22,357 nt of DNA from positions 1 to 22,357 of IMG/VR virus record IMGVR_UViG_3300021181_000045. The stretch is one strand, 5' to 3'. Shown here in pieces: positions 3,976 to 7,826 of this stretch. The translations under genes were made by a program, and so were the position numbers. Source of the DNA: a virus. The notes under the pieces are model-generated. The model saw only the letters and a program-made list of their open reading frames with translations. It made no database searches and was not told the DNA's origin. Positions within the stretch are counted from its first letter, which is position 1. Each line of letters starts with the position of its first letter.

Positions 3976-6189
3976 TTATCCCAGAATTGCTGGCCCGGAG
4001 TTGGGGCGCAGCCAGCCCTGCTCGGATAGCTTTTGGAGCAGCTGTTTCTGCTCGGCTGCTTTCTGGTTCGCGGCCCGGGCTTCCTCAAGGTGTTGCTTTG
4101 CGATGGCCGCTGCGTCCTGCCCCACCTTAAGGTGTTGTTGTGCGACGCCAAGCACGGCGTGTGCCGCGTCGTTCTTTGATATGTCCTCTTGCACCTTCTT
4201 CCAGGCTTCTGTCAGCGACGAGAACGAAATCTCCTCGTGCGGCCGGCGGGTTTCGTCGGGCGATCCTCCTGGGGGCTTCTTCTTGGGGATCCATGCCGAC
4301 GTGTCCCAGGGTTCTGGCGGTTTCTCGTTGTGCTTGCGTTCCGTGTCGGCGATCCTCTTGTCGATCTCTGCCAGCTCGGAATCGATGGCTTTGGTGAGTC
4401 CGCCCTTGTTGGCGATCGATTTGCGGAAGGCGTCGGCCCCTTCCTTCTGCGCCTTAATGAACTCAGCGAACGCATCCTTATTGGGGGCGTTTTGCTGACC
4501 GGCCAGGGTATTGTTGAAAGCGTCCGAGAATGCACCGGTGATTCCAGCGGGGCTCCTGTTGGGATTCTGGTAGCGCCGGCCATCGATGATCACATACCGC
4601 TTATCGCTCTCTTCCAAGGCGGCTGCGATTCCTGCCGCAGTTGCCTTGAAGACGTTGATGAGTTCAGTGAGTCCGCCCTTGATGCTGTCGATGATCGTAG
4701 AAAAGAAAGTCTTGAGCCCGGACCACACGCCCACGAATGTGCCTGCCCAGCTGGTGAGCGGGGCCTCCATCTGGGGGAACGCCGTTAAGAACCCCTTGAC
4801 TATCAATAGGGCCGTTTTCTCGATTTCGTCTTTCAGGTTGCGGTATACAAACTTAACCTTTTCGACTCCGTCCTCCATCTTCTTCCAGACTGAGCTCATC
4901 TTTTCGCCGAAGGTTTCCCCTTCGCCAGTTGCCTCCACGATGATCGCTGCGACTCCGGCGATGGCGGCGATGGTGATGCCGACTGGTCCCGTGAGAAACG
5001 TAAAAGCAGCCCCCAATGCCGTTATGCCAGCGATGAACGCCGGGATTACCGTGCTCGTAATGGCACCGAAGGCCGCCACTCCCGCGGCGATACCTGCGAT
5101 GGCGGCAACAACCGCGGCGCCCGTTTCGATGCCCACCTTGTGCTCATCCCAAAATCGCTTAATCGACTCCTTGGCGGATGTTGCCCACTCGTGCACACTT
5201 TTAATCCCCTCCTTGAGGCTTTCAAAGATGTCCTTGCCGCTATCCATCGCGTCGCCCAGATCGAACACGTCGATCAGCGTTGCGCCCAGTTCCTTGATAG
5301 CGCCCTTCACCGATTCGGAGAGGATGCCCCACTTGCCCATCGCCGTGGCGAGATACTTATCCGTGGCGTTGGCGTACTGGCCGGTCCCTGTGGTCAGCCC
5401 GACGAGTGCCTTGTTGAACGTCGCGAACGAGATCTGCCCGGCCATGGCCAAATCGTCAATCGCGTCGATCGGCACGTGCATCGCGTCGGCGAGCAGCTTG
5501 TAGATCGGGACGCCCCGCGCGGCGAGCTGGTTGATCTCACCAAAGCTCATCACGCCGCGATTCTGGGCTTTCCCAAAGGACATGGCCAATTCATCGATCG
5601 GAACTTGGGTTGCCTTCGACAGGTTGCCCAGCATTTCCAGTTGCGGCACCACGCTGCCAACCGACGAACCGAATGTCAGCAGCTCCCGCGCGGCCTTGTT
5701 GACGTCCGCCGTCTCGAAGGCCTTCGAGATCTTGCTCTTTTCCAGCTCCTCCATCACACGCTTGGCGTTTTCCGCTGACCCTGCCACGATCTCGAAGCCC
5801 GCTTTGGCCGCTTCGGACTGCATGGCCAGCTTCACGCCCCAGCCGACCAGCGCCCCCTCGGCCAGTGGCCCGATCCACTTTTCGATCAGCTCGCCGATCG
5901 AATGGGCCTGCTCTTTGATTTCGTCCATCCGCTCTTTGATGCGGTGCAGACCAGACTCGGCGTGCTCGGTGTCGGCGGCAACGTGGATGTGGGCCTTGGC
6001 CCCGACTTCGCCGATGTGCTTGCCCAGTTCCTGCGTGGACTTCACGGCCTCTGCGGTGTTGGCCGAGACGTTGATCGACGGCACTTCCAGATTAGAAATC
6101 TGGCCGGGCAAGTCATTCAAAGCGCTGTCGAACTGATCCTGGTTGGCAGCAATCTCGACAATCGCGCGGGTGAGTGTTTCGTCGGCCAC
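3976..6189 (-). CDS. Tail tape measure protein
   Basis: A 737-aa protein starting at a GTG (6187-6189). It sets tail length and is packed in the tail tube until DNA ejection. Residues about 120-232 match the conserved N-terminal tape-measure domain (TIGR02675 type), including ELLTFGSS, MSFGKAQNRGVMSFGEINQLAARGVPIY and FNKALVGLTTGTGQYAN. A long Ala/Gly-rich hydrophobic stretch lies at 356-419, as is common for membrane insertion during ejection. The C-terminal 150 residues are charged and helical (coiled-coil-like). No lysozyme, peptidase or transglycosylase motif was seen. At roughly 0.15 nm per residue, the known ruler relation, this predicts a tail near 110 nm. The start lacks a clear Shine-Dalgarno sequence and lies six bases after the chaperone stop. 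Confidence 0.95.
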   Translation of the reverse strand: MADETLTRAIVEIAANQDQFDSALNDLPGQISNLEVPSINVSANTAEAVKSTQELGKHIGEVGAKAHIHVAADTEHAESGLHRIKERMDEIKEQAHSIGELIEKWIGPLAEGALVGWGVKLAMQSEAAKAGFEIVAGSAENAKRVMEELEKSKISKAFETADVNKAARELLTFGSSVGSVVPQLEMLGNLSKATQVPIDELAMSFGKAQNRGVMSFGEINQLAARGVPIYKLLADAMHVPIDAIDDLAMAGQISFATFNKALVGLTTGTGQYANATDKYLATAMGKWGILSESVKGAIKELGATLIDVFDLGDAMDSGKDIFESLKEGIKSVHEWATSAKESIKRFWDEHKVGIETGAAVVAAIAGIAAGVAAFGAITSTVIPAFIAGITALGAAFTFLTGPVGITIAAIAGVAAIIVEATGEGETFGEKMSSVWKKMEDGVEKVKFVYRNLKDEIEKTALLIVKGFLTAFPQMEAPLTSWAGTFVGVWSGLKTFFSTIIDSIKGGLTELINVFKATAAGIAAALEESDKRYVIIDGRRYQNPNRSPAGITGAFSDAFNNTLAGQQNAPNKDAFAEFIKAQKEGADAFRKSIANKGGLTKAIDSELAEIDKRIADTERKHNEKPPEPWDTSAWIPKKKPPGGSPDETRRPHEEISFSSLTEAWKKVQEDISKNDAAHAVLGVAQQHLKVGQDAAAIAKQHLEEARAANQKAAEQKQLLQKLSEQGWLRPNSGPAILG

Positions 6190-6195
6190 TGTTAA

Positions 6196-6875
6196 TTAAC
6201 CGATCCTGTTAAGCCGCTTGAACTCGCGCATGGCAACGACCGCGTCCGCGTGCGACACGCCGGCATGGCCGCCTGTGCCGCCTGTCTCGTCCGTGAACTC
6301 TTTCATCCGCAGCGCCAGTTCGAGTTGGTGCCAGGTCAGCCGGGCCACGTCCGCGGGTTGCATCTCGAAATAAAACCAGAACCGAGCGAACACCCGCTCC
6401 CAATCGATCGGTTCGGCTACTTTCCCGAGTCGTCGCCTTCCTCTCCCTCCTTGGGCTTCTCGCCCTTCTTTTTCATGTTGAGCTCGTTGAAAGCCTGCTG
6501 GATCTCCGGCACGTCCTCAAACGTCACGGATTTCTGGATCATCTCCCGCGTGACCTTGGGGTGATTGGCCTCGATCGACAGGGCCAGCATCTCGCAGATG
6601 GCGGGGAAGGACTTGAGCCCGGCGTTAAAGCCGTCGGAGCCCAGGAACACGCCCTCCGATTCCTTGACCGCTCCCTCCCAGATGATGCGGCGAGCCTCTT
6701 CCGGGAGCACCAGCGAGTCGGCTCGAGCCTTGGCCCGCAAGATCGGCTGGTTGCGGAGAAAGTCTTCGAGCTTGCCGAACTGGCCGAGGTTCAGCGGGGC
6801 CAGCGTGTACGAAACGCCGGCTACCGTGACGCTGCGGGTCTTGGTGCCGGCCAGATCCACGAGAGACGTGCTCAT
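6196..6875 (-). CDS. Tail assembly chaperone, frameshifted long form (gpG-T type)
   Basis: Product of a -1 ribosomal frameshift at GGGAAAG (6420-6426). It is translated in frame 0 from 6875 through the AAG codon (152 residues), then in the -1 frame from 6420 to the TAA at 6196-6198 (74 residues), about 226 aa in total. The second part starts VAEPIDWERVFARFWFYFEM and continues QPADVARLTWHQLELALRMKEF, the small helical domain typical of the T part of lambda-like chaperones, which recruits the tail tube while the G part coats the tape measure. A GTG at 6393 lies inside this frame and could look like a separate 65-aa gene, but it has no ribosome site and would cut off the conserved WERVFARFW start of the domain. 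The position between tail tube and tape measure is the classical one. Confidence 0.85.
6379..6414 (-). other. Stem-loop downstream of the frameshift site
   Basis: On the minus strand GAACCGA (6414-6408) pairs perfectly with TCGGTTC (6385-6379) across a 22-base loop. An inner AGCG/CGCT pairing (6398-6395 with 6388-6385) can stack on it if one base pair is given up. The stem starts five bases after the slippery heptamer, the usual distance for a structure that stimulates -1 frameshifting. Folding energy was not calculated. Confidence 0.6.
6417..6875 (-). CDS. Tail assembly chaperone, short form (gpG type)
   Basis: A 152-aa protein, the frame-0 product ending at TAG (6417-6419) immediately after the slippery heptamer. 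It begins MSTSLVDLAGTKTRSVTV and has a beta-rich N-terminus, then a helical central part (PLNLGQFGKLEDFL; EEARRIIWEGAVKESEG; VTREMIQKSV) and a Lys/Glu-rich tail. This is the usual look of phage tail assembly chaperones that wrap the tape measure during tail assembly and are absent from the finished virion. It is preceded by the widest intergenic gap in the cluster, which holds two hairpins, and its own ribosome site is weak. Both features fit a protein needed in smaller amounts than the tail tube encoded just upstream. Confidence 0.88.
   Translation of the reverse strand: MSTSLVDLAGTKTRSVTVAGVSYTLAPLNLGQFGKLEDFLRNQPILRAKARADSLVLPEEARRIIWEGAVKESEGVFLGSDGFNAGLKSFPAICEMLALSIEANHPKVTREMIQKSVTFEDVPEIQQAFNELNMKKKGEKPKEGEEGDDSGK
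6420..6426 (-). other. Slippery heptamer GGGAAAG for -1 frameshifting
   Basis: Read on the minus strand the sequence is G GGA AAG in the zero frame, directly followed by the TAG stop. This is a canonical X XXY YYZ site and the same heptamer used by phage lambda genes G and T. After slippage the two tRNAs re-pair with GGG and AAA and the next codon is GTA, giving the long chaperone. A 7-bp stem-loop begins five bases downstream. Confidence 0.88.
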
Positions 6876-6980: not shown

Positions 6981-7397
6981 CTAGCTGTCGATGTTGGCCG
7001 TGGGCTTCGTGCAGGCCAGCGTACCGGTGAAGTCGACGGAGTAGGTCACCTTGCCGGCCACGACCAGATCGACCTTCACCTTGTCGACGATGATGTTGCC
7101 GGAGTAAGTGCCGTTCGCGCCGGCCGTGTTCTCGACCATGAACTGCGCAGCGATGATCGCGCCTTCGTTGATGTCCGGCGGATCGACGTGCGGGTTTTGC
7201 GCGGCGTCGTAATTCGCGTCGAACGAGCCCGACCAGCCGTGCAGACCGTCGGCGTACTCGTACGCACCGCCCGACTCGCTGCCGGTGACGTCCTGCTTGT
7301 CGGCTTTCATCTCCAGGGAGAATTTCGTGACGGCGACGATCGTTCCGTCACAAGTCACTCGCCCGTTTTTACCTGCCAGCTTGCGAGGCGTTGTCAT
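6981..7397 (-). CDS. Major tail tube protein
   Basis: A 138-aa protein with an excellent ribosome site (AAGGAG five bases before ATG). The sequence pattern is that of siphovirus tail tube proteins: N-terminal GKNGRVTCDGTIVAVTKFSLEMKADKQDVTGSES, a central GLHGWSGSFDANYDAA segment, then alternating beta strands ending TGTLACTKPTAN. These subunits stack as hexameric rings around the tape measure. Position between the tail terminator and the chaperone pair is diagnostic. It ends in a region with two hairpins, in keeping with strong expression. Confidence 0.88.
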   Translation of the reverse strand: MTTPRKLAGKNGRVTCDGTIVAVTKFSLEMKADKQDVTGSESGGAYEYADGLHGWSGSFDANYDAAQNPHVDPPDINEGAIIAAQFMVENTAGANGTYSGNIIVDKVKVDLVVAGKVTYSVDFTGTLACTKPTANIDS

Positions 7398-7406
7398 GTC
7401 TGCTCC

Positions 7407-7826
7407 TTATTGCGGGTTGACCAAGCGTTGCATGTGCACGCGATACTCGATCGTGCCTTTGAACAAATTGCGGTTGACCGGATCTTGAGTCACCCAGTCG
7501 TTGAGGTATTCCAGCCACTGCATCAGCGGGTTGTCGCCGTACTCCACCTTCACGGCGTCGATCGCCGTCTTAAACTCCTCCACGATGGCTTCGGCGGTAG
7601 GGCGATCGGACGCGAAGGCATCGACTGAAATCACCTGTGTGTCCGTGCGGGCCTGACCTTCCTCGTCAGCCGTGTTCCATTCGTCGGCTTGTGCCGGCGT
7701 CGTTTCGTCGATCGAGGCGTACGGGTTGACCTGCAGCGTCTGCGGTACCTGGCCGACGACGATCCGGCTCTGTGGCACCGTCGTCACGGTGTTGAGCGCG
7801 TTGCGGATCATCAGGGTTGCGCGCAT
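7407..7826 (-). CDS. Tail terminator / tail completion protein
   Basis: A 139-aa protein with the features of the small minor tail proteins just upstream of the tail tube gene: MRATLMIRNALNTV at the N-terminus, a helical middle (SDRPTAEAIVEEFKTAIDAVK) and a beta end TIEYRVHMQRLVNP. That end is where such proteins describe amplitude-like outer strands. Family members (DUF3168/gpU type) cap the tail tube and join it to the head. Recognition is by order and general pattern, not by a decisive motif. Its start overlaps the end of the preceding small gene by 16 bases. Confidence 0.65.
   Translation of the reverse strand: MRATLMIRNALNTVTTVPQSRIVVGQVPQTLQVNPYASIDETTPAQADEWNTADEEGQARTDTQVISVDAFASDRPTAEAIVEEFKTAIDAVKVEYGDNPLMQWLEYLNDWVTQDPVNRNLFKGTIEYRVHMQRLVNPQ

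Follow-up and report, generated by a model that had tools for sequence, protein, structure and literature searches.

The tail assembly chaperone gene described here very probably carries a programmed -1 ribosomal frameshift of the phage lambda G/GT type. The gene lies in the window, by which we mean the whole stretch of DNA analyzed, a 22,357-base contig from an uncultured virus, with its structural genes on the minus strand. Our reading is based on the slip site, the frame in which it is read, the open -1 frame, the conservation of both the arrangement and the class of heptamer, and the gene order. The features concerned, from upstream to downstream, are the following:

7407..7826, minus strand: probable tail terminator (PHROG hits to tail terminators are weak, E = 0.009 at best)
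6981..7397, minus strand: major tail tube protein, directly upstream of the chaperone pair (PHROG hit to the major tail protein family phrog_1407, E = 5e-5; L089 has a relative with 55% identity)
6875..6417, minus strand: zero-frame gene for a G-like tail assembly chaperone of 152 aa (open reading frame, profile homologues, weak fold resemblance)
6426..6420, minus strand: slippery heptamer GGGAAAG, read G GGA AAG, with zero codons before the TAG (same class in 8 of 8 homologues with a -1 frame)
6196..6420, minus strand: -1-frame T-like domain that follows the slip, with 74 aa and then TAA at 6198..6196 (8 relatives have homologous domains in their -1 frame)
3976..6189, minus strand: tape measure protein, directly downstream (Pfam TMP_3, E = 9e-16; several PHROG tape-measure families)

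Slip site, reading frames and gene order

The chaperone open reading frame ends GAC TCG GGA AAG TAG, giving the C-terminus DDSGK*, with the TAG at 6419..6417. The heptamer is thus in the correct zero frame with the stop adjoining it (G GGA AAG TAG, 6426..6417), as the initial annotation had proposed. It had also described the -1 frame as open back through the slip site, and we find this frame open from 6516 to the TAA at 6198..6196. Adding the 74 residues after the slip to the 152 aa of the zero-frame product yields the 226 aa previously predicted for the fusion. The junction would read ...DDSGK-VAEPIDWER..., continuing as ...DDSGK-VAEPIDWERVFARFW... Here one earlier detail needs correction: VAEPIDWERVFARFW had been placed ahead of a GTG codon at 6393, whereas only nine residues, VAEPIDWER, precede that codon, which is the V of ERVF.

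The neighboring genes confirm that the chaperone pair lies between the tail tube and tape measure genes, as in lambda. Specifically, the order terminator, tube, G, T, tape measure in the window corresponds to U-V-G-T-H in phage lambda, where GGGAAAG likewise occurs close to the 3' end of G, read in the same frame, with T in the -1 frame. Lambda T has about 144 aa, while the T part in the window, with 74 aa, is about half as long, and five codons separate GGGAAAG from the G stop in lambda, while in the window the TAG follows the heptamer immediately.

Similarity to lambda gpG and gpT was not detected (hhalign probability 1.1% and 0.2%), Pfam gave no convincing match for either the G-like or the T-like half, and the PHROG matches of both halves were weak, to families mostly of unknown function. 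We counted the lack of lambda G/T similarity and of a convincing Pfam match against a lambda-type reading. A structural model of the G-like protein, of moderate confidence (pLDDT 67.5), weakly resembles known tail chaperone folds: the HK97 chaperone (PDB 2ob9) was second in the PDB list with E = 1.4, and several annotated tail assembly chaperones were among the fold matches in a viral library at E values of 0.05 and above, including phage N15 GT (probability 0.96, E = 0.05, not significant). Because homology to lambda G/T was not found, we describe the gene as a member of the mechanism class and not as a demonstrated sequence homologue of lambda G.

Homologue search

Used directly as queries, the chaperone and the T-like domain matched nothing but a second contig of the same virus, and no phage records. 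This 50-kb contig, IMGVR_UViG_3300050821_009614, differs from the window by 1 mismatch in 12,188 bases and by none in the 15,062 bases of the other compared stretches; given this near-identity, we treat it as the same virus and not as an independent relative. Searches with the tape measure and tube proteins found little beyond this second contig, and those with the terminase and portal returned mostly short or distant contigs. Related virus contigs were gathered via portal and capsid alignments, the major capsid protein being the anchor that worked. The only relative of the portal/capsid module in a genome collection was L009 (JAGQOS010000160.1), located in a Planctomycetales metagenome-assembled genome, which weakly hints at a planctomycete host.

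Profile searches of the related contigs identified ten G-like homologues, with 14-26% identity to the window protein. A mechanical screen for overlapping -1 frames produced many chance pairs, and we kept only those supported by protein homology. One homologue, L153, came to notice in part because of its heptamer; protein homology alone led to the seven others with a -1 frame. GGGAAAG also occurs in -1 overlaps of L108 and L085, which were rejected because the proteins encoded there are unrelated to the window chaperone.

The related contigs also contain other candidate pairs. L157 (14748-15559), L141 (7815-8620) and L151 (10433-11430) have a different gene pair before a long, tape-measure-sized open reading frame, and all three have in common AAAAAAC where the frames overlap in -1, with an extension rich in cysteine; the heptamer of L151 is immediately followed by a TAA. 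A further candidate -1 pair before a long open reading frame, with TTTTTTG and a 70-aa extension, occurs in L093 (13750-14510) and in L092 and L094. It was not recovered as a relative of the window chaperone.

Conservation of the frameshift arrangement

The heptamer alone is weak proof, because GGGAAAG occurs 2 times in the window against 3.2 expected. The other copy (5568-5574, minus strand) is within the tape measure gene and is probably there by chance. Considering any of four strong heptamers (GGGAAAG, AAAAAAG, GGGAAAC and AAAAAAC) in frame in the window overlap, codon shuffling gives P = 0.03. In other words, the local evidence is only modest, and the evidence beyond chance is comparative.

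A domain homologous to the T-like domain is present in all ten relatives, with the pattern W......Y....E...LT..Q conserved across the set (the L082 domain is cut in the fetched locus but whole in the full record). It is in the -1 frame in eight of the ten homologues, and each of these eight has an in-frame heptamer at the G-T junction:

AAAAAAG: L089 and L145
GGGAAAG: L144
GGGAAAC: L148, L153, L082 and L134
AAAAAAC: L142

The initial annotation had suggested aligning homologues to look for any without a slippery site; all eight with T in -1 keep a strong one in frame, an outcome that favors its interpretation. Codon-shuffle probabilities for the individual homologue genes were 0.009-0.065. Their product over seven homologues (without L153) is about 1e-12, a figure that summarizes the pattern and should not be taken as a formal P value, because the sequences share ancestry. 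Judging from these junctions, it is the heptamer class that is conserved and not the exact heptamer. For example, two aligned residues distinguish L144 (GEADLGK-V) from L145 (GEADIKK-V), and both have a top heptamer; that it is kept despite two residue changes points to selection for slipperiness. The heptamers of L144 and L145, like G_GGA_AAG, are among the most efficient in E. coli (PMC4066793), a ranking that belongs to E. coli and whose efficiencies cannot be carried over to the host of the window virus and its lysine tRNAs. A similar switching among GGGAAAC, AAAAAAC and GGGAAAG is seen in the haloviruses HCTV-1, -2 and -5 (PMC5009743), which are archaeal viruses, the comparison being drawn from heptamers only. 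Since the same arrangement recurs at the same place in distant relatives, the signal is almost certainly real and of the ordinary kind.

The adjoining stop codon bears on how the ribosome would slip. The stop is flush with the heptamer in the window, while 10-39 codons lie between them in the homologues, and a P-site Lys-tRNA on A AAG could slip alone, not in tandem, while TAG waits in the A site. With the stop adjoining, such a single lysine tRNA slip would give the same protein product as a tandem slip. We consider it unlikely, since homologues whose stop lies farther off retain complete X XXY YYZ heptamers and tandem slippage is the conserved part.

The same alignments address the case for two separate genes, in which the T-like protein would start at GTG 6393 with GGGAG as its ribosome binding site and the heptamer would be incidental. 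The GTG-started open reading frame of 65 aa (6393..6196) is present as the initial annotation described it, its GTG (6391..6393, minus strand) has a weak Shine-Dalgarno-like duplex (-6.5 kcal/mol, 2 nt spacing), and the heptamer is not rare by itself in the window. However, a start at this GTG, which lies behind the conserved DWER, drops VAEPIDWER and with it a tryptophan that every homologue retains, as well as the beginning of the first helix predicted. Moreover, none of nine sequences has an ATG, GTG or TTG in the -1 frame between the slip and the conserved tryptophan, so internal initiation cannot make the whole T domain. Separate genes are therefore highly improbable, and the frameshift remains our reading of the pair.

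Relatives with a single-frame fusion

In the two remaining homologues, L105 (16025-17137) and L096 (15838-17580), the G-like and T-like domains are in one open frame. Neither has an in-frame heptamer. An out-of-frame, weak GGGAAAC near the L105 G-T junction was judged to be chance because it is absent from L096. Both fusions continue for about 135-190 further residues after the T-like domain, and no long tape-measure open reading frame lies directly downstream of either. These two same-frame fusions show that the G and T parts belong to one protein; that L105 and L096 do without a frameshift we counted against the frameshift reading. The frameshift may conceivably have been lost in the L105/L096 lineage of the chaperone family, with G and T made as one protein, a suggestion that we put forward tentatively. 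Although such fusions exist, there is next to no chance that an error of assembly or sequencing created the frame break in the window from a single continuous G-T gene, since both parts are encoded without any difference in the longer contig IMGVR_UViG_3300050821_009614, and the -1 arrangement with a heptamer recurs in eight diverged relatives.

Stem and possible upstream stimulators

We examined the sequence around the slip site for elements that might stimulate frameshifting, including a stem described in the initial annotation:

6414..6408 and 6385..6379, minus strand: 7-bp stem with arms GAACCGA and TCGGTTC, exact pairing, 5-nt spacer, 22-nt loop
6452..6445, minus strand: AAGGAGGG, candidate Shine-Dalgarno-like stimulator 18 nt upstream of the heptamer (16S-tail pairing -11.5 kcal/mol)

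The 7 bp, spacer and loop of the stem are exactly as claimed, but its value as a signal was not borne out. Shuffled sequences fold as well as the region downstream of the heptamer (z = -0.73; -0.77 and +0.28). A published rule calls for a hairpin that starts 4-10 nt after the motif with 7.6 kcal/mol or more (PMC4066793); the window site has one of -12.3 kcal/mol at a spacer of 5, and 57% of random minus-strand positions also satisfy the rule. Being at chance level, the stem adds no weight to the argument. A search of Rfam produced no match. Some homologues have strong hairpins soon after the heptamer (L082, z = -4.7; L148, z = -3.5; a short GC stem in L153).

Upstream of the heptamer, the element AAGGAGGG, overlooked in the initial annotation, is one of only two minus-strand 8-mers with 16S-tail pairing this strong, an observation made after the fact. 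A site as strong at a distance of 5-20 nt is found for 0.14% of positions. Weaker Shine-Dalgarno-like words, GGAG, GAGG and AGGA, lie 17, 14 and 13 nt upstream, respectively; words at 13-17 nt are within the range of distances covered by experiments in E. coli (PMC4066793). A rule from the same paper that looks for a Shine-Dalgarno-like word 6-17 nt upstream picks out the window site, along with 17% of minus-strand positions. It is possible that the upstream Shine-Dalgarno-like sequence acts as a stimulator.

Proposed mechanism and implications

Slippage in the host, how often it happens and what each product does are inferred, as follows. Ribosomes would decode GGA and AAG, and most would terminate at TAG to release the 152-aa G-like chaperone. 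A minority would slip one base back on GGGAAAG, re-pair on GGG and AAA, and resume at GTA, producing the 226-aa G-T fusion. In lambda, G and GT are made at about 30:1 and neither product is present in the mature virion; the binding partner of G is the tape measure protein, and that of T is the tube protein (PMC5009743). By analogy with lambda, the G part in the window virus would attach to the tape measure protein, with tube subunits being recruited by the T part.

For annotation, the consequence is that gene callers would give proteins of 152 aa and 65 aa, missing the 226-aa fusion and the nine residues with which its T domain begins. The chaperone family appears to be new in sequence and the frameshift to be of an ordinary type. 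The conserved G/GT frameshift is extended to a family without detectable lambda G/T similarity or a Pfam match. What is kept is the class of heptamer rather than the sequence, and no new mechanism is opened. The lineage with single-frame fusions is the more unusual lead: if the frameshift has truly been lost there, a comparison of recoding with non-recoding relatives would allow a test of whether free G has to outnumber GT.
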